Shown here piece by piece: positions 16,106-61,847 of a stretch of 64,000 nt of DNA. Below the pieces are notes generated by a model, which was not told the origin of the DNA, made no database searches, and saw only the letters and a list, made by a program, of their open reading frames with translations. Source of the DNA: Sphaerisporangium album (GTDB taxonomy: Bacteria > Actinomycetota > Actinomycetes > Streptosporangiales > Streptosporangiaceae); assembly GCF_003323745.1 (NCBI RefSeq), contig NZ_QOIL01000007.1, positions 186,001 through 250,000 of the forward strand, written 5' to 3'. Position 1 is the first letter of the stretch; every line of letters starts with the position of its first letter. The position numbers and the translations under genes were made by a program.

Positions 16106-16121
16106 GGCGTGTCGCGGCCGG

Positions 16122-42877: not shown

Positions 42878-42967
42878 GCCCTGTCCGGCTTCCGGAACGG
42901 CGGCGCCGTGCCCCGGGACGTCCCCGTGGCACGGCACGCGCCGCCACCCCGTGCGCTCCGGTGCGGT

Positions 42968-44244: not shown

Positions 44245-44268
44245 ATATTTTGTGCTAGTGTTCCCACC

Positions 44269-44892: not shown

Positions 44893-44894
44893 CC

Positions 44895-45308: not shown

Positions 45309-45385
45309 CCCGCGTACGGACGACGAGGCCGGAAACGTCCCGCGGGGGCACAGCGGATGGCCGCCGGGCCAGAATCGCCGCCGGG

Positions 45386-45622: not shown

Positions 45623-45725
45623 TTAACAAGTTTTCCGTTCCATCTCCAGTCTTTGCGTAGTGTGATCGGCTTGCTACCGTGTCGCTGTCGGACTTTTGCG
45701 CCGATCCGCAAGAAGGGAACACTCC

Positions 45726-46040: not shown

Positions 46041-46156
46041 GCGACCCCACCGGCCACGTCCCCTCCCCGGACCGATGGCATCCTGGCCGTCGGCGGGGTG
46101 CGCCGCGGACGGTGCGCGTATGACCGTCCGCGGCCAGGGAGGACCTCACGTCAGCC

Positions 46157-46398
46157 TCCGGGAGTTCCAGATCACCTACCACGTGCCGATCCAGGGCGTG
46201 GGCGAGCCGCTGGTCCACTTCTGGCTGGAGCACTTGGGCGACAGCAGCGGCGTCTACGGCTTCCGCGTCCTGTCCTCCGACGGCCAGACCGTCCACGCCG
46301 AAGGCCGCCGCGTCAACGTCAACCTCGACCCGGCCACCCTGCGCCCCACCCCCTTCAGCGACGAGACCCGCGACGCCGCGCAGGTCCTCGCCGCCTGA
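46157..46398 (+). pseudogene. Truncated second copy of the thioesterase gene
   Basis: From 46157 to 46398 the sequence aligns with 45067-45308 at a constant offset of 1090 bp with no gap, very high identity, and the same stop (REFQITYHVPIQGVGEPLVH, GVYGFRVLS, AEGRRVNVNLDPAT). The catalytic N-terminal half is missing. An in-frame ATG at 46120 would give a hybrid of about 92 residues. Since the hotdog active site is in the lost part, it is most likely non-functional. Confidence 0.85.
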
Positions 46399-46463
46399 TC
46401 GCGACGCCTGGACCATAATGGGGGACGCGTCCACGTGACCGCGCCGCGTCGCGAAGGGCCGCG

Positions 46464-47969: not shown

Positions 47970-48101
47970 GGCGATGCCCCTTCGACCATTCGATCGTAAC
48001 GCCTGCCACTCTGGGGCCAATATCCGTTTCGAGGACCACGCATTACGGCAGTGGCTTTATCGACCGAAGCGCCCGCCGAAACCCACGGGGTCACCGGGGC
48101 G

Positions 48102-48429
48102 TCATTTCTCGTGCCAGGACCATCCGATGTCGCCGACCCCGGGCCGGTTCGACAAAGCACTCTCATGTGTCTGCCGGAGGGGGCGGAAACGCCCAAGCCA
48201 GGTCATCGTCGCGTGAACCGACTGCCGCCACTCCAGCGCTTCGGGAACGTCCCGGTATACCAGCAGATGCTGGCCCGCGATCTGCTGGAGCAGATCCCTG
48301 ACCTCCGCGGGCGTGGCACGGAAGAACTCCCTGCGGAGGTCGACCTTGTCGACCCGCCGGTCGTTCAGCGCGACGTGCAGCCGCCCCTCCAGCCCGACCG
48401 CGCCGTCACTGAAGATCAGCGCGTGCGTG
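48102..48429 (-). pseudogene. DUF4041/T5orf172 (GIY-YIG-like) gene, 3' part of a split gene
   Basis: This frame reads THALIFSDGAVGLEGRLH, VDKVDLRREFFRATPAEVRD and EVPEAL-like sequence (DVPEALEWRQS), the second half of the T5orf172 domain found at the C-terminus of DUF4041 proteins. The first half lies at 49850-50080. The two halves share the 16-bp sequence GATCAGCGCGTGCGTG at the break, and dropping the insert plus one copy rejoins the codons in frame. As it stands the gene is broken. Confidence 0.85.
48414..48429 (+). repeat. 16-bp direct repeat, left copy
   Basis: GATCAGCGCGTGCGTG; the identical copy is at 49850-49865. It marks the left border of the 1.4-kb insertion. Confidence 0.9.
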
Positions 48430-49849
48430 CGCTGCCCCTGATCGGCCGGGTCACCGGTCGTGAGATCGACCGGGAGTGGATGGACGGCGCGCACACGCTG
48501 TATGTGATGCCATCCCGAGGCTGACGGGCCGCTTCGAAAGCCGCACCCGTGGATGGGGCCCTACACGGCTCTCGTTTCCCGGCGCGGCCACACACGCAGT
48601 CCGCCCCCCTTCTCATCGCGGCGTCACCGGCCCAGCAGCCACACCGCTGAGCTGTGCCGGCACCGGGGCAGCACTCGGTCAGGTCGACGTGCGCATCTGT
48701 TCCAGTACTCCCATGAGCGTGCCCACGCGACGGCCGCCGCGATCGCCGAGCCGCATCATGCCGATCCGCCAGATGGCATCCTGTGCTGCGGCCTTCGCAT
48801 CCTCCCCGAGTGCCGCTTCCAGTACCTGGACCGCCATGAAGCGTGCGTGCCAGTGTTCGATTGTCAAGGGCGGCGCGTCGGCGGCCGGGGTCTGGGCCCG
48901 CAGGTCCTCGCTGAGGTGACGCACCTCGTCGCGCAGCTCGACGAGCACGGCCGGGCCGGGCGCCTGTGCCAGCGAGGTCACGACGCGTCTGGTCACAGGC
49001 ATATCCAGACCGCTCAGTTCACAGGCGGTCTCCGCCAGCAGGGCGGCGATCTCGCGGGTTCTGCCGGGGTCGGGATTGGCGACGAGGTCGGCCACGCGCG
49101 GGTCCTCGGCGAGGTAGGCCAGGTGGTCGATCCTGTCTTGGTCGACCGCCGACGTATCCACGATGTCCTGCGGCGCGTCCAGGACAGCGCTCATGTGCTC
49201 GCCCGCCAGCCACCCGGGTTCCAGCCGTCGGCGGGTGACGGCCTCCCCCAGCGCCAGCCCGGCCACGCGGGGATCATCCTGCTCGGCAAGCTCCGTCCAG
49301 GCTGACAGAGCGGCGGGGAGCTCTTCGAGCTCTTCGGGATCGAACAGGTCGAACACGGCTAGCAGTCGGCCGTGCTCGGCGTAGGCCAGCTGCCCGTCTC
49401 CGTTGGCGTTCCAGAACACGCTGAGTGCCCGCCCTCTGCGGGACAAGCCGGTCAGGACATCCGGCCGTGACCCCTGGAAGCCGTTCGGCTCTACCAGTAC
49501 GGTCCACTCCCCCAGGGCTCCGGCCAGCGCCGCGCCGGCATGGACGGGGATCGCGTCGTACGCGGCCTGGACCGTCTCCGCGTATGTCCGGCTGCCCATC
49601 CCGTCCTCCCGCCGACCCGCCGCGGCGAGCGCGTCGGCGGCGGGCAGATCCTCGACCCAGGTGATGCACAGCGGCACAGTCAGGGTCTCCTCCACCAGCC
49701 GGCCGTAGTGCGCCAGCACCTCCGAGTTCAAGCGCTTCTCCTTTTCGCCTACCCCGAACGGCCCGGCCTGCCGAGATAACCGGACACCGGGCCGCCTTGC
49801 TCAAGATTTGTGAGCCGTTCGTGCTGGGACGTATTCCGATGGCTCTCCT
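48430..49849. other. 1.4-kb insertion in the DUF4041/T5orf172 gene
   Basis: This block separates the two halves of the broken gene (net insertion 1436 bp with one repeat copy). It carries an intact DUF6461 gene with its own ribosome site and, at its left end, a plus-strand reading frame to 48524 (LIGRVTGREIDREWMDGAH onward) that looks like the C-terminal scrap of another gene. Its ends are not inverted repeats and no transposase is present, so it is not an ordinary IS. Confidence 0.75.
48679..49731 (-). CDS. DUF6461-domain protein
   Basis: 350 residues from TTG 49731, with AAGGAG 6 nt upstream. The N-terminal 120 residues match the DUF6461 pattern: CITWVEDLPAADALAAAG, GEWTVLVEPNGFQGSRPDVL, RALSVFWNANGDGQLAYAEHGRLLAVFDLF. 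The rest is helical and Ala/Glu-rich, with repeats like LAYLAEDPRVADLVANPDP. DUF6461 genes are common in actinomycetes and poorly understood. Here the gene lies wholly inside the insertion, so it came in as cargo. Confidence 0.78.
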   Translation of the reverse strand: MNSEVLAHYGRLVEETLTVPLCITWVEDLPAADALAAAGRREDGMGSRTYAETVQAAYDAIPVHAGAALAGALGEWTVLVEPNGFQGSRPDVLTGLSRRGRALSVFWNANGDGQLAYAEHGRLLAVFDLFDPEELEELPAALSAWTELAEQDDPRVAGLALGEAVTRRRLEPGWLAGEHMSAVLDAPQDIVDTSAVDQDRIDHLAYLAEDPRVADLVANPDPGRTREIAALLAETACELSGLDMPVTRRVVTSLAQAPGPAVLVELRDEVRHLSEDLRAQTPAADAPPLTIEHWHARFMAVQVLEAALGEDAKAAAQDAIWRIGMMRLGDRGGRRVGTLMGVLEQMRTST

Positions 49850-49865
49850 GATCAGCGCGTGCGTG
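49850..49865 (+). repeat. 16-bp direct repeat, right copy
   Basis: GATCAGCGCGTGCGTG, identical to 48414-48429. The minus-strand codons ACG CAC GCG CTG ATC (THALI) occur in both copies. Confidence 0.9.
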
Positions 49866-50080
49866 TCGAACCTGAACGGCACCGAGGCATTGCCTAGGTC
49901 CCGCACCCGGCCCTCCGGATCCAAGCGCCGGGTCATGCCGATCTTGACGACCTCCTCGCCGAACGCGCCGACGTTGGAGATTACGTACACGTAGCCCGCC
50001 CGGACGTTGGCCTCGCGCGCCTCCACGTCACTGACCGCCGCGCCGATCTCCTCCAGCTTTCCGAAAGGCACCGAGCACAC
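49850..50080 (-). pseudogene. DUF4041/T5orf172 gene, 5' part of a split gene
   Basis: The frame reads FGKLEEIGAAVSDVEAREAN, VRAGYVYVISNVGAFGEEVVK, IGMTRRLDPEGRVRDLG and FRFDTHALI. GYVYVISN-xx-VKIGMT is the GIY-YIG-like T5orf172 signature. Homologues continue with several hundred residues of coiled coil upstream; that part is missing beyond about 50070. So this gene lost its N-terminus and was also split by the insertion. Confidence 0.82.
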
Positions 50081-50300
50081 CGAGTTCTACCCGGACACCC
50101 TCGGCTTCTACGAACCCTGAGACGGCTCCTACGACACCTGACCACCTGATCTGCACGTGCGGGCACCGGCGCACACCGCACGCAAGGCTCCGGTTGCCGG
50201 CGAGAACTCATACACCACGACCGTGGACGTAACCTCGTCCAGGGCCGTCCAGACCTGTGGTCGGCATCCGCGTCAGCAAGATCACACAGATGGTGCCGGG
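50081..50300. other. Gap between remnant and RDD gene
   Basis: 220 bp with no supported gene. A plus-strand frame ending at 50120 (HTEFYPDTLGFYEP, then stop) may be a scrap of another gene, but I cannot assign it. Confidence 0.35.
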
Positions 50301-51341
50301 TCAGGTCTGAGGCTGAGCGTCCCGTACCTGGTCGCGTACCACCGAAGCGCCCAGCCAGCGGTCATGAAGAACACGGCCTTCGGGATCGAAGAGCATCCAC
50401 AGCCCGTCCGCGAGGAGACACCACAGCCCGACGTCGGGGACGAAGGCGAGGAGGGGGAAGACCAGCGCGCGGAGCGCGGCCCTGCCCGCACCCGGCCGTC
50501 CGCCCGTGTGCGCGGCGATGACGCGAATGCCCAGCAGCCGCTTGCCGAGCGTCCGCCCCCACAGGGCGTGCTGCACCCAGAAGTAGAGGAACACCCCGGC
50601 CAGGACGGCCAGTTCCGCGGGCCTCGCCCTGCCCCGGAACACGTACGCGTCGGCCCGCTCCAGAAGTCCGGCCCCCATCTGGACCCTGAAGTAGGTGTCG
50701 ATCAAGGGCCAGGCCACCCCCACGACAGCACTGAGGGCCGCGACAACGATCAGATAGTCGACCAGGGCCGCCGCCGCCTGCCGCCACACCGTGTCGGCCT
50801 GTGACTCTTCCGGCTCGTCCGTGGTGACGGACCGCATCGCCCTCGGCGCGGCGAACACCAGCGCCGCGGCCACCAGGAGACACAGCTGGGTGATCCCCCA
50901 GCCACCGGCCACCCCTTTGAACCAGTCGACGCTGAACAGCAGCGTCTCATCGCAGCCTTTCCGATCGCTGTGCAACGAGGCGAGAGGTTCGATGACCGCG
51001 CTCAGGACGAGGAGCCCCGCCACCCGTCGGCCTGTCACCCCCGGATCTCTGGGGCCCAGACACGCGAGGAGGCCGAGAAGGACCACCATGGCCGGAACCG
51101 CCCAGCCCTCCGTGATCTCCATGACCTCTTCGAGATCACGGCGCAGCGGGGCAAGCGGTGACAGCGTCGTTCCACCGTTGTACAGGCACACGAGCCCGTA
51201 GATGTCGCCTTCATAGGCCCGGGCGAACTCCTCAGGCTGGAGTCGCTCACGCCACAGCTCCCAGGTCGGGAAGGCGGCGACAGCCGCAGCCGCCACCCAC
51301 GCCGCCAGCGCTGACCGTGACAAACGGGAGAACTGCAGCAA
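50301..51341 (-). CDS. RDD-family membrane protein
   Basis: 346 residues from TTG 51341, with AAGGA upstream. Eight or so hydrophobic segments are visible. The C-terminal 160 residues form the RDD domain: AAALVDYLIVVAALSAVVGV, HALWGRTLGKRLLGIRVIA with the conserved Gly-Lys-Arg stretch, and DPEGRVLHDRWLGASVV. In RDD proteins the first helix usually carries an Arg and the second an Asp pair; here the Arg position is weak. Some RDD proteins act as cation transporters. It is the last gene before the integrated element. Confidence 0.85.
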   Translation of the reverse strand: MLQFSRLSRSALAAWVAAAAVAAFPTWELWRERLQPEEFARAYEGDIYGLVCLYNGGTTLSPLAPLRRDLEEVMEITEGWAVPAMVVLLGLLACLGPRDPGVTGRRVAGLLVLSAVIEPLASLHSDRKGCDETLLFSVDWFKGVAGGWGITQLCLLVAAALVFAAPRAMRSVTTDEPEESQADTVWRQAAAALVDYLIVVAALSAVVGVAWPLIDTYFRVQMGAGLLERADAYVFRGRARPAELAVLAGVFLYFWVQHALWGRTLGKRLLGIRVIAAHTGGRPGAGRAALRALVFPLLAFVPDVGLWCLLADGLWMLFDPEGRVLHDRWLGASVVRDQVRDAQPQT

Positions 51342-51506
51342 GGTGATCCTTTCCCCTCTGGGAGCGACACCTTACCGACACGCCAACGAATCGGCAGACA
51401 TGCGATGCGGATTCGGCTCGCGCAGGTGCAACCAACCTGCGAGCGCGTAGTGCTCCACACGGCGGGCGCGGGCTCGGTCAGCGGGGTCAGGGGTGGGTAA
51501 GGCGGA

Positions 51507-51528
51507 CGAGTCGGCCTGTAGGCCGGGT
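51507..51528 (-). repeat. attL core and displaced rnpB 3' end
   Basis: 22-bp core identical to 56783-56804. Immediately left of it, 51501-51506 (GGCGGA) completes the original chromosomal 3' end of rnpB: on the minus strand it reads CTCGTCCGCC, which pairs perfectly with the 5' strand of helix P1 at 57176-57161. Confidence 0.88.
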
Positions 51529-52080
51529 AATCACGACCACTCCAAGATGATCAATGAGGCTAGCTGCATCGGATCGTGAAGGACCTGCTCAGAGGAGGTT
51601 TCCTCTGTCCCTCCCCTTCCGGTCCGGTGTCGGCCGTTCCTGGGTCCTCAGGGTGACCGTGCTGACCCTGTGCTGACCCTGCTGACTCTGACCTCGATCT
51701 GTAGCTCCCAACTCTCCACGCCCCTCCCTGAGGCTCCCCCGTCCCTTCGGCTGGCGGAGTCGTGGGTCACCAAGGACATAGGGGGAGTACGGATCTCTGG
51801 GACAACTCCTGACCTTCGACCCCGGGGGGTTTAAACCGGGCGCGCGTTAGGAACTACTATCGCGTCAGAAAATTCTTTTCTATACGGACATACCGAGCAA
51901 GGTATGCCAGTAGCCCTGTATCACCACGGAACACCCTGAAAACGTTGCTCATCTCAAATCTGACGGCCTAATAGGTTGTCCGGGCATCTAGGGGTACCCC
52001 CTAGCCCTTAAGGGCCTTAGACATACGGCTATTGCTGCTTCTATGGGTATCTGTCACGTGGAGCCATCAAGCCGGAGATG
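51529..52080. other. Non-coding left arm of the element
   Basis: 552 bp without a gene. It contains the 11-bp tandem repeats at 51659-51680, the palindrome GGTTTAAACC near 51830, an inverted repeat around 51885-51905, CTAGGGG-TAC-CCCCTAG (51988-52004) and GCCCTTAAGGGC (52004-52015). The last two may terminate the GntR transcript. The rest may hold recombination sites. Confidence 0.6.
51659..51680 (+). repeat. Left arm-type tandem repeats
   Basis: Two perfect copies of the 11-mer GTGCTGACCCT (51659-51669, 51670-51680), followed by a weaker GCTGACTCTGACC. The same motif at the same 11-bp period recurs near the other end (56711-56732). They are candidate integrase arm or excisionase sites. Confidence 0.6.
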
Positions 52081-52344
52081 TTACGAGTCTCCGCTAGGGG
52101 TCTTACCCTCCGCTTCCTTGCGAGCAACGAACGTGCCCATACCTGGCTCGGTACGGGTGAGGCCGTCTGCTCTCAGCCTGTGCAAGACCTTCTGCGCTGT
52201 CGCAGTGGCTATGCCGAACTCTTCCTGAAGTTTCAGCACAGATGGCAGCTTGTCACCAGGTGCGTAGATCCCTGACTCGATTCGTCCCCTGATGATCTCG
52301 TAGACCTGAACCCATCTCGCTACGTCTGGCTTCCACTCCATCAT
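52081..52344 (-). CDS. GntR-family transcriptional regulator (short)
   Basis: About 87 residues from ATG 52344; ATG 52341 or GTG 52353 are also possible and none has a good ribosome site. It is little more than a GntR winged helix: WVQVYEIIRGRIESGIYAPGDKLPS, LQEEFGIATATAQKVLHRLRADGL, TRTEPGMGTFVARK. Such short GntR proteins (KorSA type) control replication and transfer genes in actinomycete integrating plasmids. It is divergent from the two small genes, with repeat sequences between. Confidence 0.88.
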   Translation of the reverse strand: MMEWKPDVARWVQVYEIIRGRIESGIYAPGDKLPSVLKLQEEFGIATATAQKVLHRLRADGLTRTEPGMGTFVARKEAEGKTPSGDS

Positions 52345-52388
52345 GATCAGCACGCTAGGTACTGTCTCGCCTGCTTAGCGATAGAGGG

Positions 52389-52406
52389 ACTCTAGGCACT
52401 CTAGGC
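52389..52406. promoter_or_regulatory. Tandem 9-bp repeat between divergent element genes
   Basis: ACTCTAGGC occurs twice head to tail (52389-52397, 52398-52406), with related CTAGG motifs at 52355-52359 and 52446-52450. This is a candidate operator for the GntR regulator. Confidence 0.5.
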
Positions 52407-52456
52407 ATTGCAGGGGTACTATCGGCATCTGACCAGCCGTAGACCTAGGACGGGCG

Positions 52457-52642
52457 ATGACGACCTCACCGACGTACAACCCTGACGACCTGAGCGAGGA
52501 ACAGCTATGCGGGCAAAGGTGCGTGATCTGTAACTCTGACTGGATCATCGAATCTGCTACCGGTGCGGGTGGACGAATTGCCCATGTGCCAGTCGAGGCC
52601 CTGCCTACCGGAGACATCCTCTTCATGTGCTGGCATCACTAG
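52457..52642 (+). CDS. Small element protein with CxxC-like motif (61 aa)
   Basis: 61 residues starting MTTSPTYNPDDLSEEQLCGQ. It has the cluster CGQRCVICNSDW and a final MCWHH, so four Cys and two His could bind a metal. GGACGGG precedes the ATG. It is tightly followed by the next small gene. No family is recognised. Confidence 0.65.
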   Translation: MTTSPTYNPDDLSEEQLCGQRCVICNSDWIIESATGAGGRIAHVPVEALPTGDILFMCWHH

Positions 52643-52643
52643 G

Positions 52644-52940
52644 GTGTGGCGAATAGTGGAATCAATACGGAAACTCTTGGTCAACCTAGAAGGCCGTCAG
52701 ATCTCGATCCCCGCTACCGAGTGCATCGTGTACTTGGCTCAGGCGTACACCGACACAGCCAACCCATTCCCCACCCATGCTCACGTCACCACCGATTCGG
52801 AAAATGCTCGGAGCTTCCTACGTGAAGTTATCGCAAAAGGTGGATACGGGCATGTGGTGGCATTCGACGTAACGCTTCCCGATCGACCGGTCAAGATTAA
52901 ATGCCTTGGCAGGATCGATGGCCCTTCAGAGGGCACGTAA
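52644..52940 (+). CDS. Small element protein (about 98 aa), unknown
   Basis: About 98 residues from GTG 52644, directly after the upstream stop; GTG 52656 is an alternative. It contains VESIRKLLVNLEGRQISIPA, FLREVIAKGGYGHVVAFDV and KIKCLGRID. The fold appears alpha/beta, and no family is recognised. It is probably co-expressed with the 61-residue protein under the GntR-controlled promoter. The terminator follows 34 bp after the stop. Confidence 0.6.
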   Translation: MWRIVESIRKLLVNLEGRQISIPATECIVYLAQAYTDTANPFPTHAHVTTDSENARSFLREVIAKGGYGHVVAFDVTLPDRPVKIKCLGRIDGPSEGT

Positions 52941-52973
52941 CTCCCCGCAATTCCGGAACGGTTGACCCGTAAG

Positions 52974-53006
52974 GCACTCACCAGGTCCCTTTCTGGTGGG
53001 TGCTTT
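52974..53006 (+). terminator. Rho-independent-type terminator
   Basis: GCACTCACCAG (52974-52984) pairs with CTGGTGGGTGC (52993-53003), 11 bp with one G-T wobble and an 8-nt loop, followed by TTTGCTTTG. Confidence 0.8.
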
Positions 53007-53079
53007 GCTTTGTGACCACAATGAAGCATCTTCGCCTTGACCTGAGTATGTACCACTAGAGGAGTGTCAACAAGGGAAA

Positions 53080-53440
53080 GGCGATGCTAAACGCATCGCC
53101 GCTTGACCAAAGAACGGGAAATGGAGGATTACATAGAGATGAGAAGAGGAACCCCAAAAAGGGGTTCCCATGGGTCTAACCCTTTGGATGTAACAGAAAG
53201 GTAACTACAATGGGGAGCCTGTGCTCCCCTTCTTCCTTATCTGTACTCTCGCCAACTTCCGAGGTTGGCGAGAATAATATCTGTGGTAGAACCTCTAATA
53301 CATACTATATATAGCGGCCATCCAAGGCCGCTTAAGTAATATCTAGAGAAGACTATTAGGGCGACCTTGTGAGTCGCCCTTTTAGTATCTAATCCTCCCT
53401 AAACTTCTTAGGCCAAATCAAGGGCCGCCCTCAGGCGGCC
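53080..53440. repeat. Array of seven hairpins in the element's non-coding core
   Basis: Seven perfect inverted repeats in 361 bp, each of different sequence. They are 53080-53100 (stem 8), 53148-53168 (8, loop AAAAA), 53212-53229 (7), 53247-53273 (10), 53313-53332 (7), 53358-53380 (8, followed by TTTT) and 53423-53440 (7). They lie between convergent gene ends (52940 and 53524). One or two could be terminators; seven is far more than needed. They may be a replication origin, a structured RNA or a packaging/transfer site. No protein frame spans them. Confidence 0.75.
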
Positions 53441-53488
53441 TAGATAGAACAGTGGGTAAAGGGGGGGGCGGAGACCCCCTATTAGGGT

Positions 53489-53516
53489 CCCCACCTACCC
53501 ACCTACCCACCCACCC
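53489..53516 (-). other. G-quadruplex motif beside the ATPase stop
   Basis: On the minus strand five G-runs are spaced 1, 1, 5 and 5 nt apart (runs at 53516-53514, 53512-53510, 53508-53506, 53500-53498 and 53492-53489). This fits a very stable G4 consensus, 8 nt beyond the ATPase stop. A G-run of opposite polarity at 53461-53468 precedes it. Confidence 0.65.
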
Positions 53517-53523
53517 GTGACCT

Positions 53524-54471
53524 CTATGCAGCCCGTTGCTTCTCTGCCTGCTCTGTCAGCTCCCAGACACCCGACCGGACTTGCTTGACGGGGATAGCTC
53601 CCTCTCCGAGATACTTCCGCCAAGTCTGCACGGACTTCTCATACTTCTCGGCGAGCTTTTCTGCTGCCTTATTCTGGGACATCCCCTGACAGTTATCAAC
53701 CACATAGACCGCCTGAGCTAGTCGCTTATCCAAGTTGGCCCTGTTGCTCTCTCGCTTAGGCTTTTCCTTGTGCTCCCATTCCTTTGTTACCGAGAATCGT
53801 AGACCGCTGGTATCTCCTAGAGTCAGTCGGCATACCTTCTCGGCTGTGTGGTTACCCCGAACCGTCAGCTTATGAGTTCCGCCACCTTGTCCATTCTCTT
53901 CTAGATGGAGAATGACCCTCGGCCACGAGGTGATGAATTGGGAACCATTGATAGATTTCCCACTCCCGTAGCCCATGCCTGCCTTGGTAGCATGGTGTAC
54001 CACGATCACAGGAATTCCAGAGCCAACTACCCCATTGACTCTTTCTATAGTAGGACGCACGCCATTCCTCTGTGTGAGGTCGGCTTGAGGTGGCAACAGT
54101 CCATCCAGATTGTCAATGACCAAAACGTCTGCGTGTTCTATGACCATACGTAGGTCATCGTCATCTCGAATGTTCTCCACGAAGAGGACATCGCGGAAAG
54201 TCGGATCAAGCTTCCCGTAATACTCCTTGAACTCTGGCAGACTTCCCGCGTCCGTCAAGGAAACAGCTACTCTCTTAGTCTTGCCCGTCGGCACATCGAG
54301 GAAGGGGTTCCCATTCGCCAATGAGTGGATCAACTGACGCACCATGATCGACTTACCGACCTTGGGTTGTCCGTAGACAAGCGTCACCGCCCCTGAGATC
54401 AATCCTTCCACGAGAAACAGATTCTCCGCCTCCATCTTCCTTACTGCCTCAATCATCGGAATTACTCCCAT
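53524..54471 (-). CDS. RepA/RecA-like AAA ATPase (putative element replication protein)
   Basis: 315 residues. Walker A is YGQPKVGKSIMVRQ (about 34-45), Walker B is ADVLVIDNLDGLLP, and a sensor strand IPVIVVHHATK follows, as in hexameric RepA-type helicases (AAA_25). The C-terminal 100 residues are charged and contain a helix-turn-helix-like end (MSQNKAAEKLAEKYEKSVQTWRKYL). AGGAATGAGG precedes the ATG. It probably unwinds or initiates replication of the excised element at the neighbouring hairpin segment; no primase is present, so host factors would be needed. Confidence 0.88.
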   Translation of the reverse strand: MGVIPMIEAVRKMEAENLFLVEGLISGAVTLVYGQPKVGKSIMVRQLIHSLANGNPFLDVPTGKTKRVAVSLTDAGSLPEFKEYYGKLDPTFRDVLFVENIRDDDDLRMVIEHADVLVIDNLDGLLPPQADLTQRNGVRPTIERVNGVVGSGIPVIVVHHATKAGMGYGSGKSINGSQFITSWPRVILHLEENGQGGGTHKLTVRGNHTAEKVCRLTLGDTSGLRFSVTKEWEHKEKPKRESNRANLDKRLAQAVYVVDNCQGMSQNKAAEKLAEKYEKSVQTWRKYLGEGAIPVKQVRSGVWELTEQAEKQRAA

Positions 54472-54521
54472 TGCCTCATTCCTTTCTTGTCGAGTGTTCC
54501 TGTTTTAATAGTTGCTGACAT

Positions 54522-54722
54522 CTAGCTCTCGTCCATCCATCGGTCAATCTCGCTGAGTCGATACCGGTATTGGTTGCCGACCTTCCGGTGAGGGATCCTC
54601 AGCTTGATCACGTTGTCGTAGATCCAAGAGGCTGGCTTCCCCAGGTGTAGGGCTACCTCCTTGGTTCCGACCCAACGCTCTTGAACCTGCGTCCGAGCAG
54701 GCGAAAGTGTCGTACGTGCCAT
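54522..54722 (-). CDS. Excisionase-like helix-turn-helix protein
   Basis: 66 residues from ATG 54722, with GGGGAACGG immediately upstream. A MerR-type winged helix is clear: VGTKEVALHLGKPASWIYDNV, LRIPHRKVGNQYRYRLSEIDRWM. This is the usual excisionase (Xis) or HTH_17 layout in actinomycete integrating elements. It lies 50 bp upstream of the ATPase gene on the same strand. Confidence 0.85.
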   Translation of the reverse strand: MARTTLSPARTQVQERWVGTKEVALHLGKPASWIYDNVIKLRIPHRKVGNQYRYRLSEIDRWMDES

Positions 54723-54777
54723 CCGTTCCCCTCTGTCGTCGTTCTTTCCTGTCTGTCCAGATTCTAGCACCTGACCC

Positions 54778-54815
54778 CTGACACCCGCCGTGTGTCGAGT
54801 GGTACTCTGAGTGCA
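54778..54815 (+). promoter_or_regulatory. Promoter of the 54815 gene, probably leaderless
   Basis: -35 CTGACA (54778-54783), 19-bp spacer and -10 TACTCT (54803-54808), with the ATG about 7 nt later and no ribosome site. The inverted repeat GACAC-N7-GTGTC (54780-54796) overlaps the -35 and spacer and could be an operator. Confidence 0.55.
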
Positions 54816-55408
54816 TGACGACCTACGACCCCAAAACCTGGGGACTCCGCCTGCCGGAGAACTGGCACATCTCAGAGGTTCACAAGGGACAACCCAACCA
54901 GTTCGTTGGCTACTACGACGTGCTTGGTTGGACGGTTGCTATCTCTTCGAACCTCTTTGCTCCATGGAACGGACCTGTTGGCCTCTCGATCTATGTAACG
55001 GACGAAGAAGGAATTAATAGTGCCTGTGAGTCCGACGGAATAACCGTTGACGTACTCCGATCGGTACCCCTAGGAGAAGCGCGAAGGGTTATCGCTGATA
55101 TCGCAAAACAGGTACGGGAGAAGCAAGGGAGTCCAAACCTTCCTCAACTCCCCCGAAGGTTAGAGACCCCTCATCATTACGCCCTTGTCGCTCAGGCGTA
55201 CATCCAGGCCGTAGAGGCAGGAAGGAAGAACCCCATCCTGTATCTCTCCCAGCTCTGGGATATCAGCAAGAACACCATGGCCGCACGCATCAAGAAGGCT
55301 AGGGAGATGGGTCTCCTCTCGGGGGAGGAAGGGAAAACCGCTAACCGTCTCACCGACAAGGCCAGGGAGATTCTTAACGGGGTCAACCCGGATGAACCCC
55401 CGTACTAA
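54815..55408 (+). CDS. Element protein of unknown function with C-terminal HTH (197 aa)
   Basis: 197 residues. The N-terminal 90 residues form a mixed fold (LPENWHISEVHKGQPNQF, YDVLGWTVAISSNLFAPWNG). The C-terminal 80 contain helices resembling a sigma- or phage-type HTH (ALVAQAYIQAVEAGRKNPIL, ISKNTMAARIKKAREMGLL, LTDKAREIL). This pattern suits a DNA-binding regulator of excision or copy control. It is probably translated from a leaderless message. No named family recalled. Confidence 0.7.
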   Translation: MTTYDPKTWGLRLPENWHISEVHKGQPNQFVGYYDVLGWTVAISSNLFAPWNGPVGLSIYVTDEEGINSACESDGITVDVLRSVPLGEARRVIADIAKQVREKQGSPNLPQLPRRLETPHHYALVAQAYIQAVEAGRKNPILYLSQLWDISKNTMAARIKKAREMGLLSGEEGKTANRLTDKAREILNGVNPDEPPY

Positions 55409-55573
55409 TTTCCCTGGGATACCCCTAGAAGACTCCAGGATGCCCGCAGAAGGAACGAATGACTTCCTGGAGAAATCTACCCATCCGATCAGAGAAAACC
55501 CCTCAGAATCGATTACAGAGCCCTACGCGGGCACATGTAGGGCTAGCTCAATTCATGTTAGGAGATGACGGGC

Positions 55574-56743
55574 ATGGCAACGGTGTTCAAGAAGTGCGAC
55601 TGTCGTAACAAGGGTAGGTGTGAGCACAAGTGGACCGTCAGATATCGCGAACCGGGAGGAAGGGCAGCTAGGCAGCGCGAGAAGTCTTTTCGCCTGAAGG
55701 CTGAGGCCGAAGCTTTCGAGGTCAAGATAGAGAACGAGAAGAACCAAGGAACCTACTCCGACCCGAGTAGGGCAAAGGTCACGTTCAAGACCTACGCCGA
55801 GACCTGGATGGCTGATATGCCCCATCGGCCTTCTACGGTGGACACCTACACTCGGCATCTCAAGAATCACATCTTTCCCACGTTCGGAAACAAGCCTCTC
55901 AACACCATCCGGACGGGTGCCGTTCAAGGATGGGTGAAAGCCCTGACGGTGAAGGGTCTTGCTCCATCGACTGTGGAAACCATCTACAACATCTTCGCCA
56001 GCATTATCAAAGGTGCCGTGAAGGATGACCGGTTGGGCAAGTCTCCCTGTGTAAACATCAAGCTTCCCGACGTTCACAAGACCGGTATCAGTCTCCTATC
56101 GGCAGATCAGGTGAAGGCTCTCGCTGACGCGGTTCCTACTCGATACAGGGCTTTGATCCTGGTAGCGTTCGCAGCGGGTCTCAGACAGGGGGAAGCTCTG
56201 GGACTCTGTCAAAGTCGCGTGCTGTTCCTAGAGCGGAAGCTCAGGGTCGATCAGCAAATCACCCTTACCGGAAGCAAGAGCGACGGCTCCAAGGGCACAA
56301 GGCCGACTCTGAGCGCTCCCAAGACCAAGGCCAGCACTCGGGACGTGCCTCTCCCTCAGTTCGCCTTAGAAGCGCTCTCAGCGCACATCAGGGCGTTTCC
56401 CCCAAAGGATGACCTACTCTTCGGCACGGTCAGAGGTAACCCGATGCGTCGGGACTACTTCAATGACAAGGTCTGGAAGCCTGCCCTCAAGAAGGCGGGT
56501 CTCCCTGAAGACACGACGTTCCATGACCTGAGGCATTCCTTCGCCAGTACGGCTCTCGCTGAGGGAGTCCCCATCTCCGACGTGTCCAAGTGGTTGGGGC
56601 ACGCTTCGATCACTGAGACCGTGGACACCTACGGGCACCTCGTACCTGAGGCTGACAACCGCGTCCGTTCCGCTCTCGATGGGGCCTTCAACCGGTCTTC
56701 CGAGAGTGATGGTGCTGACTTGGTGCTGACCTTGGTTCAGTAG
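55574..56743 (+). CDS. int: Tyrosine site-specific integrase
   Basis: 389 residues from ATG 55574, with GGAG 9 nt upstream (an ATG three codons earlier is possible). An N-terminal Cys/His cluster (CDCRNKGRCEHKW) and arm-binding region precede the SAM-like core-binding domain (PSTVDTYTRHLKNHIFPTFG) and the catalytic domain. Catalytic residues: Arg in AAGLRQGEALGL, Lys in TKASTRDVPLP, His-x-x-Arg in FHDLRHSFAS, His in KWLGHAS and the nucleophile Tyr in TVDTYGHLV. It ends 39 bp from the attR core. It would recombine the rnpB core sequences. Confidence 0.95.
   Translation: MATVFKKCDCRNKGRCEHKWTVRYREPGGRAARQREKSFRLKAEAEAFEVKIENEKNQGTYSDPSRAKVTFKTYAETWMADMPHRPSTVDTYTRHLKNHIFPTFGNKPLNTIRTGAVQGWVKALTVKGLAPSTVETIYNIFASIIKGAVKDDRLGKSPCVNIKLPDVHKTGISLLSADQVKALADAVPTRYRALILVAFAAGLRQGEALGLCQSRVLFLERKLRVDQQITLTGSKSDGSKGTRPTLSAPKTKASTRDVPLPQFALEALSAHIRAFPPKDDLLFGTVRGNPMRRDYFNDKVWKPALKKAGLPEDTTFHDLRHSFASTALAEGVPISDVSKWLGHASITETVDTYGHLVPEADNRVRSALDGAFNRSSESDGADLVLTLVQ
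56711..56732 (+). repeat. Right arm-type tandem repeats (inside int)
   Basis: GGTGCTGACTT (56711-56721) and GGTGCTGACCT (56722-56732), the same motif and period as the left copies at 51659-51680, in the same orientation. They lie within the last codons of the integrase gene. Confidence 0.6.
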
Positions 56744-56776
56744 GGACCAATGAACATGAAGGTCAGAGACCTAAAC

Positions 56777-57176
56777 AGCGGGCGAGTCGGCCTGTAGGCC
56801 GGGTTTTGTCCTTTGCTTGCGCAAAGGGGCGACCATCCATCTAGGGCCGCCGTTGCCGGCGGTCTCAAGCGGTCTACCCGCGCGACTCGGGCGGGTCACC
56901 CTCGAACGCCGCGCGCGGGGTCCTCCGAGGAGGGCCCCTTCTTGACCTTGCTCCGGGTGGGGTTTACCGAGCCGCCCACGTCACCGTGGGCGCTGGTGGT
57001 CTCTTACACCACCGTTTCACCCTTACCTCCCGCGAGGGGAGGCGGTTTGTTTTCTGTGGCACTGTCCCGCGGGTCGCCCCGGGTCGGTGTTACCGACCAC
57101 CCTGCCCTGTGGAGCCCGGACCTTCCTCGGCAGGGCTCGAAAGCCCTGACGCGGTCGCCCGGCCGACTCGTCCGCC
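56777..57176 (-). ncRNA. rnpB: RNase P RNA
   Basis: About 400 nt, type A. On the minus strand, GAGTCGGCCGGGCGACCGC near the 5' end and the universally conserved GAGGAAGGTCCGGGCTCC (CR-I/P4) are followed by ACAGAAAACA, a GGTAAACCCC segment, GTAGA near helix P15, TAGATGGATGG-like CR-V (P4') and ACAAAACCCGGCCTACAGG at the 3' end. P1 forms between 57176-57161 and 56792-56777. The last 27 or so nt after the core are supplied by the integrated element, leaving one A-C mismatch and one G-U pair in P1. A TAAACT -10-like box lies just upstream. Confidence 0.95.
56783..56804 (-). repeat. attR core (within rnpB 3' end)
   Basis: 22-bp core identical to 51507-51528. It forms the conserved 3' terminal stem-loop region of the RNase P RNA. 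Outside the core toward the element, 56777-56782 reads AGCGGG instead of the chromosomal GGCGGA. Confidence 0.88.
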
Positions 57177-57201
57177 GTCGTGCAAGTTTAACCGATCGGC
57201 G

Positions 57202-57369
57202 GTGACGATCATTCCTGACCTGCTCGGTGAGGGCATCCGGCTGTACGACAACCCCGGCGGTGAGCCGATCCGCCTCCACCGGGTCGGCGAAGGCGACCCC
57301 ACGTCGGCCGTCAACGTGCGGTACCGGCCCGCCACGGCGGCCAAGCCCGGCCGGGAGGGTGCCGGGTAG
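57202..57369 (+). pseudogene. C-terminal fragment of a dihydrofolate-reductase/RibD-like gene
   Basis: The frame reads VTIIPDLLGEGIRLYDNPGG, EPIRLHRVGEGD and SAVNVRYRP, the last beta strands of DHFR-like (RibD_C) reductases, in which PxLLGxGxxLF is characteristic. At 57202 it abuts rnpB and the other 130-150 residues are missing, so it is a truncated remnant. The rnpB promoter lies partly inside it on the other strand. Confidence 0.65.
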
Positions 57370-57376
57370 GCCTCTC

Positions 57377-58585
57377 TCAGCGGAGGTGGGCGGTGTCGTT
57401 GAAGGTTCTCACCAGCTGGGGGCCGTCGGGGAAATAGTCGATGACGGACAAAGCCGCGAGGTCGAGGTGCATGCGGTACAGGGCGGCCAGGGGCGCCAGG
57501 AGGGCGGAGGACAGCAGCAGCTTGATGGGGCTGACGTGCGAGACGACCAGGACGGTCTTGCCCTGGTGGTCGAGGAGCAGCCGGTCCCTGGCCTGCTGCA
57601 CGCGGACCGCCGCCTGGTCGAAGCTCTCACCGCCGGGCGGGGTCACGGAGGGATCGGCGAGCCAGGCCGCCAGCTCGTCCGGCCACGCGCGCTGGATCTC
57701 GGTGAAGGTGTGGCCCTCCCAGGCGCCGAAGTCGACCTCGCGCAGGCCGTCCTCCACGGCGACCTTCAGGCCCGTACGGGCGGCGACGGCCTCGGCGGTC
57801 TGGCGGGCGCGCCGCAGCGGGGAGCTGACGATGACGTCGATGGCGTAGGGCGCGCGTGACAGCCGCGCGGCGGCGGCGTCGGCCTGGGCGAGGCCGGTCG
57901 CCGTGAGCTCGGGGTCGCCGGTGCCGGAGAAGCGGCGGTCGATGGAGAACGGCGTCTCGCCGTGGCGGAGCAGGAGGAAGGACGTGGCGGCGGAGGCAGC
58001 CGTCCAGCCACTGGCGGACGCGGCCCGGGGCTTTTCGGCCACGACGCGGGCCTGCCCGGCGGACGTGCCGTCGCCTATGGAGCCGGGTTCACCGGAAGGT
58101 AAGGCGGAGGCGCCGGGCGGCGGGCCGGAGGTGGTCCGGGGCGAGGCCGGCGGGGAGGTTCCGCCCTGCCAGGTGGTGCCGCGGGCGGCGGCGTCCATGG
58201 CCTCGTTGGCGAGGCGGTCGGCGTCGCGGTTGCGTTCGCGAGGGATCCACTTCCAGGTGACGCGCAGGCGCCGGGCGAGGTCACGGGCCTCGGTCGCGAG
58301 CGGGCGCAGGCCCTCGTTCTTGATCTTCCAGCGGCCGGCCATCTGCTCGATGACCAGCTTGGAGTCCATGCGGACCTCGACGGTGGCCCCGTCGCCGGCC
58401 AGTTCCAGCGCCGAGCGCAGGCCGGCGATCAGGCCTTGGTACTCGGCGACGTTGTTGGTGGTGATCCCGAGCGCGTCGGCCGCCTCGGCGAGCACCTGCC
58501 CGTCGGCGTCCTTGACGACCGCGCCGTACCCGGCCGGCCCGGGGTTGCCGCGCGAGCCGCCGTCGGCTTCGACGACGAGGTTCAC
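57377..58585 (-). CDS. Bifunctional ribonuclease HI / CobC-like phosphatase
   Basis: 402 residues from GTG 58585, overlapping the upstream stop (GTGA). The N-terminal RNase HI domain (about 1-140) has catalytic acids in VEADGGSRGNPG, NNVAEYQGL, VRMDSKLV and NRDADRLANEAM. A Pro/Ser linker of about 60 residues follows, then a histidine phosphatase domain (about 205-400) with FLLLRHGETPFSIDRRF, REVDFGAWEG and VVSHVSPIK. The mycobacterial homologue (Rv2228c) has RNase H and alpha-ribazole phosphatase activity. The order with zinc-ribbon and Nif3-like genes is conserved. Confidence 0.94.
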   Translation of the reverse strand: MNLVVEADGGSRGNPGPAGYGAVVKDADGQVLAEAADALGITTNNVAEYQGLIAGLRSALELAGDGATVEVRMDSKLVIEQMAGRWKIKNEGLRPLATEARDLARRLRVTWKWIPRERNRDADRLANEAMDAAARGTTWQGGTSPPASPRTTSGPPPGASALPSGEPGSIGDGTSAGQARVVAEKPRAASASGWTAASAATSFLLLRHGETPFSIDRRFSGTGDPELTATGLAQADAAAARLSRAPYAIDVIVSSPLRRARQTAEAVAARTGLKVAVEDGLREVDFGAWEGHTFTEIQRAWPDELAAWLADPSVTPPGGESFDQAAVRVQQARDRLLLDHQGKTVLVVSHVSPIKLLLSSALLAPLAALYRMHLDLAALSVIDYFPDGPQLVRTFNDTAHLR

Positions 58586-59322
58586 AGACCCGACTCGGGG
58601 GTGCGGACGAGGATCCTGCGGCACTCCTCGCAGCGCAGCACCTCGTCCTTGGCGGCGGCGCGGATGCGGTTGAGGTCGGCGATGGACAGCGACACCTTGC
58701 ACCCCTGGCAGCGCCCGCCCTGCAGCATGGCCGCGCCCACGCCGTACTGCTCGCGCAGCTTCTCGTACAGGGTGAGCAGGTCGGCGGGGATGTCGGAGGT
58801 GATGCCGCCGCGCTTGCCCTTGGCCTCGCCGCTCTCGCGGTCGAGCTCGCCGAGGGCGGCGTCGCGCTTCTCCTCCAGCGTGGCGAGGCCCGCGCTGATC
58901 TCGCCGCGCTCGGCGGTGAGCCGGGTGACGGTCGCGTCGGCGGCCTCGCGGCGCTCCATGATCTCCAGGACGACGTCCTCCAGGTCGCCCTGGCGGCGGT
59001 GGAGCGAGGCGAGCTCGGACTGGAGGTTGGACAGGTCCTTGGACGAGCTCACCTGGCCCGAGTCGAGGCGCTTCTGGTCGCGGTCGGCGCGCACGCGCAC
59101 TGCCTCGACGTCGGACTCGGCCTTGGCCTGCTCGCGGGCGAGGTCACTCGCCTCGGTCTCCGCGGCGATCACCTCGGTGGCGAGGCGGGCGAGCTTGGCC
59201 GAGCGTTCGTCGATCTCGGCGAGCTCGGGCAGCGTGCGGCGGCGGTGGGCCAGCCGGTCGAGGACCGCGTCGAGCGCGGCCAGTTCGAGCAGGCGCTTTT
59301 GTGCTTCCGGGGCTGCTTTCAC
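58582..59322 (-). CDS. C4-type zinc-ribbon, coiled-coil protein
   Basis: 246 residues from GTG 59322. Residues about 30-180 are a long antiparallel coiled coil (EIDERSAKLARLATEVIAAE, LSNLQSELASLHRRQGDLED). The C-terminus carries CQGCKVSLS and LRCEECRRIL, four Cys binding one zinc. The family (CT398/Rv2229c-like) is linked to RNase H and nucleic acid or secretion functions, not firmly known. The start follows the Nif3 stop with no gap, and its stop overlaps the RNase HI start. Confidence 0.9.
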   Translation of the reverse strand: MKAAPEAQKRLLELAALDAVLDRLAHRRRTLPELAEIDERSAKLARLATEVIAAETEASDLAREQAKAESDVEAVRVRADRDQKRLDSGQVSSSKDLSNLQSELASLHRRQGDLEDVVLEIMERREAADATVTRLTAERGEISAGLATLEEKRDAALGELDRESGEAKGKRGGITSDIPADLLTLYEKLREQYGVGAAMLQGGRCQGCKVSLSIADLNRIRAAAKDEVLRCEECRRILVRTPESGL

Positions 59323-60168
59323 TTAATCCTCGCACTGTGCTGTTGTAGTCCAGGGGTCCGTCACCGTCCGCGAGACGCGCGTCTCAACATTAATCCCCTT
59401 CGCGGCCAACCCGGACGCGAGCAGCTCGGCGGCCTGGGGCAGCCAGGGCCATTCGGTCGCCCAGTGGGCCGCGTCGACCAGCGCGGGACCGCCGCCGAAC
59501 GCCCCGGACTGCAGGAACTCGGCGGAGGGGTGGTGCCTGAGGTCGGCGGTGAGGAAGACGTCGGCGGCGCGCACGGCGCCGAGGCCGAGCAGGGAGTCGC
59601 CCGCTCCCCCGCTGACGGCGACGGTGCGGACGACGCGCGTGGGCTCGCCGGCGACGCGCAGGCCCCACGTCGTGCGCGGCAGCCCCCGGACGGCCTGCCG
59701 GGTGAAGTCGCGCAACGTCATCGGGCTCTCCAGCTCGCCGACGCGGCCGAGGCCCCGGCGCGGGTCGTCGGGGGACGGCTGGAGGGGGCGCAGCGGCCCG
59801 GCGAGGCCGACCGCCCTGGCGAGCGCGTCGGAGACGCCGGGGTCGGCCACATCGGCGTTGGTGTGGGCGGTGTAGAGGGCGATGTCGTTCTTGATCAGCG
59901 TGTGCACCAGGGCGCCCTTGGCCGTGCCGGCGGCGACGGTGGTGGTGCCGCGCAGGTAGAGGGGGTGGTGGGTGACGATCAGGTCGGCTCCCCAGGCCAC
60001 GGCCTCGCCGCCGACGGCCGCCACGGGGTCGACGGCGAACAGGATCTTGCGTACGGGTTGCGCCGGGTCTCCGCAAACCAGGCCCACAGCGTCCCAGGGC
60101 TCCGCCCAAGCCGGGTCATACGAAGATTCAAGTTCCGCGATGATCGCGGACAACGCTGTCGGGGACAC
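59323..60168 (-). CDS. Nif3-like dinuclear-metal hexameric protein
   Basis: 281 residues. The NIF3 family (GTP cyclohydrolase I type 2 related) is shown by AEPWDAVGLVCGD, LIVTHHPLYLRG with metal-binding His, YTAHTNADVA and DAAHWATEWPW near the end. It is a cytoplasmic toroidal hexamer of uncertain activity. It heads a three-gene operon with the zinc-ribbon and RNase HI/CobC genes (homologues of Rv2230c-Rv2229c-Rv2228c). Confidence 0.93.
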   Translation of the reverse strand: MSPTALSAIIAELESSYDPAWAEPWDAVGLVCGDPAQPVRKILFAVDPVAAVGGEAVAWGADLIVTHHPLYLRGTTTVAAGTAKGALVHTLIKNDIALYTAHTNADVADPGVSDALARAVGLAGPLRPLQPSPDDPRRGLGRVGELESPMTLRDFTRQAVRGLPRTTWGLRVAGEPTRVVRTVAVSGGAGDSLLGLGAVRAADVFLTADLRHHPSAEFLQSGAFGGGPALVDAAHWATEWPWLPQAAELLASGLAAKGINVETRVSRTVTDPWTTTAQCED

Positions 60169-60227
60169 GTGCGCAGACTACCGCCACGATTTAGCGTGGG
60201 CGGGTCTGACACCCGGAGGGCCGGCGA

Positions 60228-61670
60228 ATGGCACCAAGCGTAGCGATCATCGGGGCGGGCTTCGGCGGGCTGTGCATGGCCATCCAGCTCGAGAAGGCCG
60301 GGATCACCGACTACACGATCTTCGAGAGGGCCGACCGCCTCGGGGGGACGTGGCGGGACAACACCTATCCCGGGGCCGCCTGCGACGTGCCGTCCCACCT
60401 GTACTCCTACTCCTTCGAGCAGGCGTACGACTGGACGCGGCGCTATCCGTGCCAGCCGGAGATCCTGGCCTACCTCGATCGCTGCGCCGGAAAGTACGGC
60501 CTGCACGCCCGGCTGCGGCTCGGCGCGGAGGTGACGGCCGCCGTCTTCGACGAGGCGGTGAACCGCTGGCGGCTGACGGTCGCGGGCGGCGAGGAGCGGC
60601 TGTTCGACGTCGTGGTGTCGGGGGTGGGGCAGCTCAACCGGCCCCGCCTGCCCGACATTCCGGGTCTGTCGACGTTCGCGGGGACGAGCTTCCACTCGGC
60701 CCGTTGGAACCACGCCCACGACCTCGCCGGACGCCGCGTGGCGGTGGTCGGCAACGGCTCCTCGGCCGCGCAGATCATCCCGCGCGTCGCCGCCGTCGTC
60801 GCCCATCTGGACGTCTACCAGCGCACGCCGAGCTGGGTCATCCCCAAGCCGGACGGCGAGTACGGGCCGCGCGAGCGGCTGGCCTTCCGGCGCCTGCCGC
60901 TCCTGCGATCGGCCAACCGCCAGCGGGTCTACCGGTTCATCGAGGGCGTGGTGTACCCGGCGCTGGTGGACGGCTGGAGCCGGCCGTTGATGATCAAACG
61001 GGCCGAGGAGCACCTCAGGCGGCAGGTCCGGGACCCCGGGCTCCGCGCGAAGCTCACCCCGGCGTACCCGATCGGCTGCAAGCGCATCGTGCTGGACAAC
61101 GACTTCTATCCCGCGCTGACCAGGGACAACGTCGAGCTCGTCACCGACCCGATCGTCCGCGTGACGCCGGAGGGCATCGAGACGCGGGGCGGCACGTTGC
61201 GCGCGGCCGACACGATCGTCTTCGCGACCGGCTTCCACTCGACCGACTTCCTGGCCCCGATCGAGATCGTCGGGCGGGGCGGGCGCGACCTGCGCGAGGT
61301 GTGGAAGGACGGCGCGGAGGCGTACCTGGGCGTCGCGGTGCCCGCGTTCCCGAACCTCTTCCTGCTGTACGGCCCGAACACCAACCTCGGCCACAACTCG
61401 ATCATCCTCATGATCGAGTCGCAGGTCAGGTACATCATGGGGTGCCTGCCGCTGCTGGCCGCGCGCGGCCCGATGGAGGTGCGGCGGCCGGCCATGGACG
61501 CCTGGCGCCGAGCCCTGGACCAGGCGCTGGCGCGCACGGTCTGGCGGGAGGACTGCGACAGTTGGTACAAGAACGCCGCCGGTCGGGTGACGAACAACTG
61601 GCCGGGGCCGGCGTCGATGTACCGCAGGATCACCAGGGCCCCGCGCCCCGACTCGTACACCTTCGGGTGA
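60228..61670 (+). CDS. Flavin monooxygenase, Baeyer-Villiger type
   Basis: 480 residues. FAD site VAIIGAGFGGLCMAIQLEKAG, then RLGGTWRDNTYPGAACDVPSH (typical of BVMOs), the BVMO fingerprint FxGxxxHxxxW as FAGTSFHSARW, and the NADPH site VAVVGNGSSAAQIIP. TGFHSTDF and GPNTNLGHNS complete the pattern. It would oxidise a ketone to an ester, or N/S substrates. It lies downstream of a short divergent region and before two peptidase genes; the substrate is unknown. Confidence 0.93.
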   Translation: MAPSVAIIGAGFGGLCMAIQLEKAGITDYTIFERADRLGGTWRDNTYPGAACDVPSHLYSYSFEQAYDWTRRYPCQPEILAYLDRCAGKYGLHARLRLGAEVTAAVFDEAVNRWRLTVAGGEERLFDVVVSGVGQLNRPRLPDIPGLSTFAGTSFHSARWNHAHDLAGRRVAVVGNGSSAAQIIPRVAAVVAHLDVYQRTPSWVIPKPDGEYGPRERLAFRRLPLLRSANRQRVYRFIEGVVYPALVDGWSRPLMIKRAEEHLRRQVRDPGLRAKLTPAYPIGCKRIVLDNDFYPALTRDNVELVTDPIVRVTPEGIETRGGTLRAADTIVFATGFHSTDFLAPIEIVGRGGRDLREVWKDGAEAYLGVAVPAFPNLFLLYGPNTNLGHNSIILMIESQVRYIMGCLPLLAARGPMEVRRPAMDAWRRALDQALARTVWREDCDSWYKNAAGRVTNNWPGPASMYRRITRAPRPDSYTFG

Positions 61671-61847
61671 CAGGGCAGGGCACCTCGCCATGCAGGACAA
61701 AAGGGACGATCCGGAACAGCGGTGCTCCCGGCATCGAATTTCTCTTTGCCCGCCGTACGTATACGGTCGGATGACATCGGACCATCCAGGGTGACCCGGG
61801 CCCCGCCACGGAGAACGGAGACGCCCGCGGGCGAGAGGAGTCCACGC

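Follow-up and report, generated by a model that had tools for sequence, protein, structure and literature searches.

Does an integrative element use rnpB, the gene for RNase P RNA, as its chromosomal attachment site, and how far does such use extend beyond a single genome? The question is raised by a stretch of 64,000 nucleotides from Sphaerisporangium album (RefSeq assembly GCF_003323745.1, contig NZ_QOIL01000007.1, positions 186,001 to 250,000), here called the window and numbered from its first letter, in which a tyrosine integrase gene faces the 3' end of rnpB and a second copy of that end lies at a distance. An initial annotation had proposed a 5.3-kb integrative element with rnpB as its attachment site. 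The observation is confirmed, and the interpretation is supported and widened to a family of integrases. Judging from the sequence comparisons below, we consider it very probable that the window carries a small integrative element, whose integrase recombines the element's own copy of the rnpB end with the chromosomal rnpB end.

The duplicated end of rnpB

The features that define the site are listed here by window position.
56779 to 57170, minus strand: rnpB, RNase P RNA class A, complete (RF00010); proposed attachment site at its 3' end
56778 to 56804, plus strand: proposed attR, the element-borne rnpB 3' end, fused to the rnpB body (direct repeat, RF00010)
51502 to 51528, plus strand: proposed attL, the displaced chromosomal rnpB 3' end, the core copy far from rnpB (direct repeat)
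51529 to 56777, no strand: element interior, GC 0.549
55565 to 56743, plus strand: tyrosine integrase, 392 aa (Phage_integrase, 4e-24; N-terminal SAM-like domain; R207, K253, H320, R323, H346 and Y356 conserved)

The full RF00010 model (1-367) covers 57170 to 56779 on the minus strand with 294.9 bits, and rnpB is single-copy, as had been stated, with one RF00010 match across the 9.3-Mb draft genome. Its last 27 nt recur 5276 bp away as a direct repeat identical at 26 of 27 positions; the spacing is that first reported, and the repeat is longer than the 22-bp core then recognised. With at most one mismatch allowed, the 22-nt core pattern occurs exactly twice in the genome, on the same strand, and a reversed-pattern control gives no occurrence. 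GC content between the copies (0.549) contrasts with 0.690 (40000-51500) and 0.729 (57177-64000) in the flanks. The integrase gene, on the plus strand, converges on rnpB, on the minus strand, with 35 nt from its stop codon to the rnpB 3' end at 56779 (the earlier figure of 39 bp is correct from the last sense codon).

The element thus extends over about 51502-56804, or about 5.3 kb. Its right boundary was initially placed at 57176 and is here moved to about 56804, since 57176 is past the rnpB 5' end; the near-copy of the core there is inverted and comes from the opposite strand of helix P1. The predicted empty site is corrected likewise, from 51501 joined to 57176 to 51501/51528 joined to 56779/56805. 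The region shows two marks of an element of the tyrosine-integrase class: a direct repeat at both ends, one copy of it inside the intact target gene, and a tyrosine recombinase with its catalytic residues, which we take to be the six named above. All 29 aligned rows agree at five of these (R207, K253, R323, H346, Y356), and 93% have H320. A tRNA or transfer-messenger RNA (tmRNA) gene was considered as the true site and rejected, because ARAGORN finds neither in the window and none is present in the 14 relatives' loci scanned.

In the mechanism that we propose, the integrase would recombine attP, an approximately 26-bp copy of the rnpB 3' end carried by the element, with attB, the corresponding end on the chromosome, the attachment site being the P1 3' strand plus the nucleotides preceding it. 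Integration would join the rnpB body to the element's end copy and displace the original end to the far side, so that the RNase P RNA would stay complete.

Related integrases across Actinomycetes

An order-level search of 345 genomes (E up to 1e-75) gave 15 integrase loci in 14 genomes, and a class sample of 394 genomes (E up to 1e-60) added 18 more, out of 24 loci detected in 22 genomes, for a total of 33 related loci with the window's own included. rnpB could be placed in 40 of the 41 genomes; G493, which is 68% complete, is without it. Integrases near the rnpB 3' end, which the initial annotation had suggested seeking in other actinomycetes, make up most of this set: 17 of the 33 face a full rnpB, ten sit at copies of its end, and six do not.

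The 17 (the window's own, G026, G053, G068, G085, G154, G161, the second locus of G209, G211, G267, G274, G309:C2, G425, G426, G580, G642 and G649) all converge on the 3' end of the full gene within 1.3 kb, 15 of them within 110 bp. The integrase of G085 has an internal stop, and that of G161 ends at a contig end. The ten integrases beside or between copies of the rnpB-end core include four that share a contig with rnpB. Two of these sit in arrays (G131 and the first locus of G209), one has a core 0.9 kb off and rnpB 12.7 kb off (G356), and one is 5.9 kb from rnpB and has a core on either side, the two cores being 20 kb apart (G050). The other six are on contigs without rnpB, and their link to the site is therefore by the core only, which lies just upstream of the integrase start in G354, G377, G437, G493 and G502 and 0.8 kb past the integrase end in G457. 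The remaining six of the 33 loci are elsewhere (G309:C17, G158, G413, G692, G326, G104), and an Rfam scan around them gave nothing but a thiamine pyrophosphate (TPP) riboswitch near one. As a control, we took 29 more distant integrase loci of the genus (L003-L031), of which only L026 shows a core when up to three mismatches are tolerated; 27 of 33 related loci are thus at rnpB or its end copies, against one of 29 distant loci with an imperfect core. G356 also has an extra partial rnpB match (L109 1213-1311, 98 nt, 23.4 bits) at its distal core; the complete gene is 14.6 kb away.

By these distributions, the window integrase belongs to a family that extends over Actinomycetes, is mostly found at the rnpB site and is common to small elements, actinomycete integrative and conjugative elements (AICEs) and islands with phage genes.

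Integrase phylogeny

In a maximum likelihood tree of 46 integrases, the window integrase pairs with that of Actinomadura rupiterrae (support 100/95) within a clade of 12 (100/100). All 12 are at rnpB or its end copies: ten face a full rnpB, and the others are the first locus of G209 and G050. A grouping with enzymes that target tRNA genes, which had been named as evidence to the contrary, is therefore not what the tree gives. Outside the clade, rnpB users are intermixed with off-site members, and a two-state count ("rnpB or core" versus "other") requires five changes, so that a single origin of rnpB use is not established and gain is indistinguishable from loss. L139 and L142 form long branches that join each other.

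The site within helix P1

In all, 23 attL/attR pairs were compared, several of which are remnants; the P1 5' strand was chosen as the best nearby match. Across these pairs the element-borne strand pairs at 13-15 of 15 P1 positions when wobble is counted. The pairing expected in the window is 15 of 15 positions for the displaced end and 14 of 15 for the element-borne end, the mismatch falling just outside the P1 of Rfam. The two copies differ within the 26-mer in 11 of the 23 pairs, and the longest stretch that never differs is core positions 11-16 (CGGCCT or TGGCCT). In the window this corresponds to one further feature.
56788 to 56793 (equivalent 51512-51517), plus strand: CGGCCT, proposed crossover segment, from its invariance in 23 pairs

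We propose that the crossover falls within these positions; later mutation could mimic such invariance. Read in the direction of the integrase gene, the rnpB-proximal core forms a terminator-like hairpin with a T-rich tail from rnpB, by consensus match only. Our guess is that convergent rnpB transcription might keep the integrase down while the element is integrated.

Genus relatives and the predicted empty site

Ten genomes of the genus were compared over 9-11 kb downstream of rnpB (1.3 kb in G009, where the contig ends). Six (G001, G002, G007, G008, G009 and G010) have one core at an intact rnpB, and four have a second core, at 8.2 kb (G003), 5.2 kb (G004) and 2.0 kb (G005 and G006). No intact related integrase was found in these four. 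Relatives that keep both core copies and lack the element had been named as evidence against it; by the absence of an intact integrase the four come near to that kind. Next to rnpB, however, G004 retains the 3' end of the integrase (89% over 570 nt, a stretch that takes in rnpB), and both G003 and G004 have pieces of an integrase 3' end beside their distant core copies; because of these pieces we read the second cores in all four genomes as decayed insertions.

When the window flanks are joined as in the predicted empty site, they align without gaps to G007 over 135 nt, of which 17 nt are beyond rnpB. Shuffled sequences scored as high in 15 of 500 trials for G007, 4 of 500 for G008 and 42 of 500 for G006, the last being marginal, and a flank match above shuffles is absent in the other seven genomes (G001-G005, G009, G010). 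Between the element and a genus-conserved block ending near 43.8 kb is a stretch (43800-51500) that varies among the genus relatives, and for this reason the zone downstream of rnpB seems to extend beyond the 5.3-kb element.

A survey of core copies independent of the integrase

The 22-nt core with one mismatch allowed was also sought directly in the 394 class genomes, a pattern that genomes with other P1 sequences escape. It is present in 209 of the 394, with at least two copies in 44, the window's own genome included. Among the 43 others, 20 have copies on one contig within 30 kb and 23 have them far apart or on separate contigs. In 20 of the 20 genomes with close copies these are on the same strand, i.e. 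direct repeats. Integrase genes or fragments accompany the copies in 11 of the 20: seven were known from the order and class searches (G649, G580, G642, G356, G050, G209, G309), and a profile for tyrosine integrases detects three broken genes (G612, G210, G391) and one fragment (G657); G533 has a doubtful trace. In eight (G436, G429, G663, G442, G692, G647, G693, G392) the profile finds no integrase, with 3 kb read in G392 and the sequence stopping at contig ends in G429 and G436. Not every core duplication can therefore be attributed to the family of the window integrase. A repeat arising by chance or by recombination beside an unrelated integrase gene would agree with these eight genomes, and we regard it as extremely improbable given the same arrangement in most relatives, the direct orientation in 20 of 20 and the rarity of the core by chance.

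In L170 (959-17409), 16.5 kb between rnpB-end copies encode a NERD-helicase protein and a 1779-aa DEAD/MZB helicase, resembling a defence island, and no tyrosine integrase was found. The 1.6-Mb genomes G693 (L172) and G647 (L171) have six and three core copies downstream of rnpB, respectively (up to four mismatches), with no integrase detected, and in L172 an aminotransferase gene adjoins rnpB.

Several observations weigh against a site-specific element at rnpB or against its generality. Six of the 33 related integrases sit elsewhere, and six of the 27 assigned to the site are on contigs that lack rnpB. Of the 20 survey genomes whose core copies are direct repeats, eight give no hit to the tyrosine-integrase profile. 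The window's attR carries one mismatch in the extension of P1 and its attL none. Support for an empty site in the genus amounts to 17 nt of flank in two genomes. A single origin of rnpB use would have to be argued from a tree with long branches, and the predicted excision and integrase activity are deduced from sequence.

Genes carried by the element

The accessory genes of the element are as follows.
54522 to 54770, minus strand: HTH_17 protein, candidate excisionase, 82 aa (PF12728, 7.6e-09; excisionase PHROGs)
53524 to 54471, minus strand: AAA_25 ATPase, 315 aa (PF13481, 5.8e-13; weak matches to phage primase/helicase PHROGs)
54815 to 55408, plus strand: helix-turn-helix (HTH) protein, 197 aa (phrog_11473, 2.8e-10), adjoining the integrase gene wherever it occurs (10 genomes)
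52081 to 52353, minus strand: short GntR-type regulator, 90 aa (PF00392, 1.9e-16)
52563 to 52940, plus strand: open reading frame (ORF) of 125 aa, no family matched

The HTH_17 protein would act as excisionase, and the NCBIfam excisionase model ("excise") scores below its cut-off. After excision, the AAA_25 ATPase, for which phmmer finds no match among PDB sequences, would take part in replication or regulation, as would the 197-aa HTH protein. ORFs of 125 aa and 61 aa had no match in the family scans. Among the seven window ORFs scanned against Pfam, PHROGs and NCBIfam there is no FtsK, RepSA, relaxase, terminase or capsid family. These ORFs thus include neither the Rep initiator (such as RepSA) and FtsK-like transfer protein of an AICE, nor the virion and packaging genes of a prophage, nor a packaging or capsid-remodelling family as in phage satellites.

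A sibling element is in A. rupiterrae DSM 45251, the only relative found in the named genome collection, with an integrase 62% identical to that of the window. Its rnpB-end copies are 5920 bp apart and the gene order is the same (HTH_17, AAA, HTH, integrase), with identities of 63% over 49 aa (HTH_17), 29% (AAA) and 46% (HTH); it has different accessory genes (DUF6879 and a DUF5753 regulator). An apparent HTH_17-AAA fusion in this element was withdrawn, as the HTH_17 match is a separate 60-aa frame. Homologues of the 197-aa HTH protein occur in nine other genomes of 342 in the order, always with an integrase gene alongside. When A. rupiterrae is set aside, the integrases of the remaining eight share 24-34% identity with that of the window, no AAA homologue was found, and there is no core (up to four mismatches) within the 9-14 kb read. 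In four of the eight, about 70 bp separate the integrase from a tRNA-Leu gene. Given these identities, the missing core and the tRNA-Leu neighbours, the HTH-integrase pair recurs with different integrases and, probably, at different sites. In these four genomes (L153-L156) the tRNA gene is tRNA-Leu(gag), and the pair beside it includes an integrase other than the window's.

Other elements at the site, phages and viral contigs

RepSA and FtsK, the hallmark of AICEs, are both present in the rnpB-site elements L047, L051 and L054, and FtsK in L106. L111 is a 15.8-kb rnpB-site island with a tape measure protein. L059 (G309, 7996-17682) holds a 9.7-kb rnpB element with a major head protein and a match to a replication initiator; not every ORF was checked for terminase or tail genes, and the element may be either a reduced prophage or a satellite that makes capsids.

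Three accounts of the nature of the window element compete. It is possible that it is a phage satellite, integrating in the same way and then replicating after excision and being packaged by a helper phage; its small size, the weak PHROG matches of its AAA and HTH proteins and the head protein of the 9.7-kb G309 island would suit this, against which stands the lack of any packaging or virion family in the seven ORFs. To the same tentative degree it may be a small mobilizable element derived from an AICE, having lost its own transfer genes and being moved by a conjugative helper, since related integrases serve AICEs with RepSA and FtsK at this site and several rnpB-site AICEs have GntR-type regulators; the window and A. 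rupiterrae elements, however, have the AAA/HTH set and not RepSA or FtsK. Somewhat less probable is a resident remnant, formerly mobile and now stuck. Such remnants are common at the site in the genus (G003-G006, with integrase pieces in G003 and G004), but here the two att copies hardly differ, and the full-length integrase retains the conserved residues.

Viral contigs contain the core in five stretches on four contigs (the one stretch of a second search being among them), and in all four an integrase is next to the core. One of 38.8 kb encodes a tape measure protein and is bounded by the core on each side; it was rejected as the source of the window element, its integrase being 30% like that of the window and on a long branch in the tree. 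Known phages were rejected likewise, as phage integrases are at most about 33% identical among the best 20 of 2612 matches. When a phage collection was searched with the core, matches over most of the query came from two records, MT835553.1 and MT836823.1 (90%). The former, filed as "Bacteriophage sp.", was dropped as a phage source; it contains a complete bacterial rnpB (288.1 bits, L180 4003-4363) and is for that reason probably bacterial DNA in part.

Comparison with known systems

Taken together, we lean towards the conclusion that rnpB is a class-wide attachment site in Actinomycetes, used by an old integrase family common to AICEs, islands with phage genes and small AAA/HTH elements, with a host P1 strand repeatedly swapped for an element-borne strand that needs to pair, and that this has not been described before. 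Class-wide use would mean that carriers have repeatedly replaced one host P1 strand with one brought by an element. The initial annotation knew of few described cases; in agreement, searches of the open-access literature, outside which most subscription papers lie, gave no account of rnpB serving as an attachment site, and priority is not established. Integration at the 3' end of an RNA gene is of a known kind, and it is the rnpB target and the surrounding integrase family that appear new. rnpB is held to be essential. If the conclusion is correct, rnpB, of which the present genome has one copy, joins tRNA and tmRNA genes as a regular structured-RNA integration site; element-borne P1 strands are predicted to keep pairing; and integrases become available for a conserved single-copy actinobacterial locus.

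Integrases are said to target the 3' end of tRNA and tmRNA genes, as Williams reportedly set out in 2002. Those systems likewise combine a tyrosine integrase, a structured-RNA 3' end rebuilt by the element and a direct repeat at the far end, and differ from the window in that its target is RNase P RNA, with the core in the P1 3' strand. For AICEs of the pSAM2 type, the sites so far known are tRNA genes. Relatives of the window integrase sit in elements with the RepSA and FtsK of AICEs at rnpB (L047, L051, L054), whereas the window element has AAA_25 and HTH proteins instead, with neither RepSA nor FtsK in the ORFs scanned.

The nearest published passage found concerns two mycobacteria, in which additional rnpB homologues are regarded as horizontally acquired; the passages concerned describe these as further RNAs that flank an endonuclease gene, and propose no attachment site (PMC9569102). 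Also comparable is the dusA-targeting integrase family, whose prophages and genomic islands are tied to one conserved non-tRNA gene; it differs from the family described here in its protein-coding target, in the use of the 5' end and in having other integrases (PMC4482086). The islands mapped by TIGER/Islander resemble the window element as mapped islands with integrases, and their sites are classed as tRNA/tmRNA, coding or intergenic, rnpB not being named (PMC12424338). Islands at rnpB may sit in the TIGER "intergenic" class, and the rnpB site may explain islands called intergenic in catalogues based on tRNA, tmRNA and protein genes.

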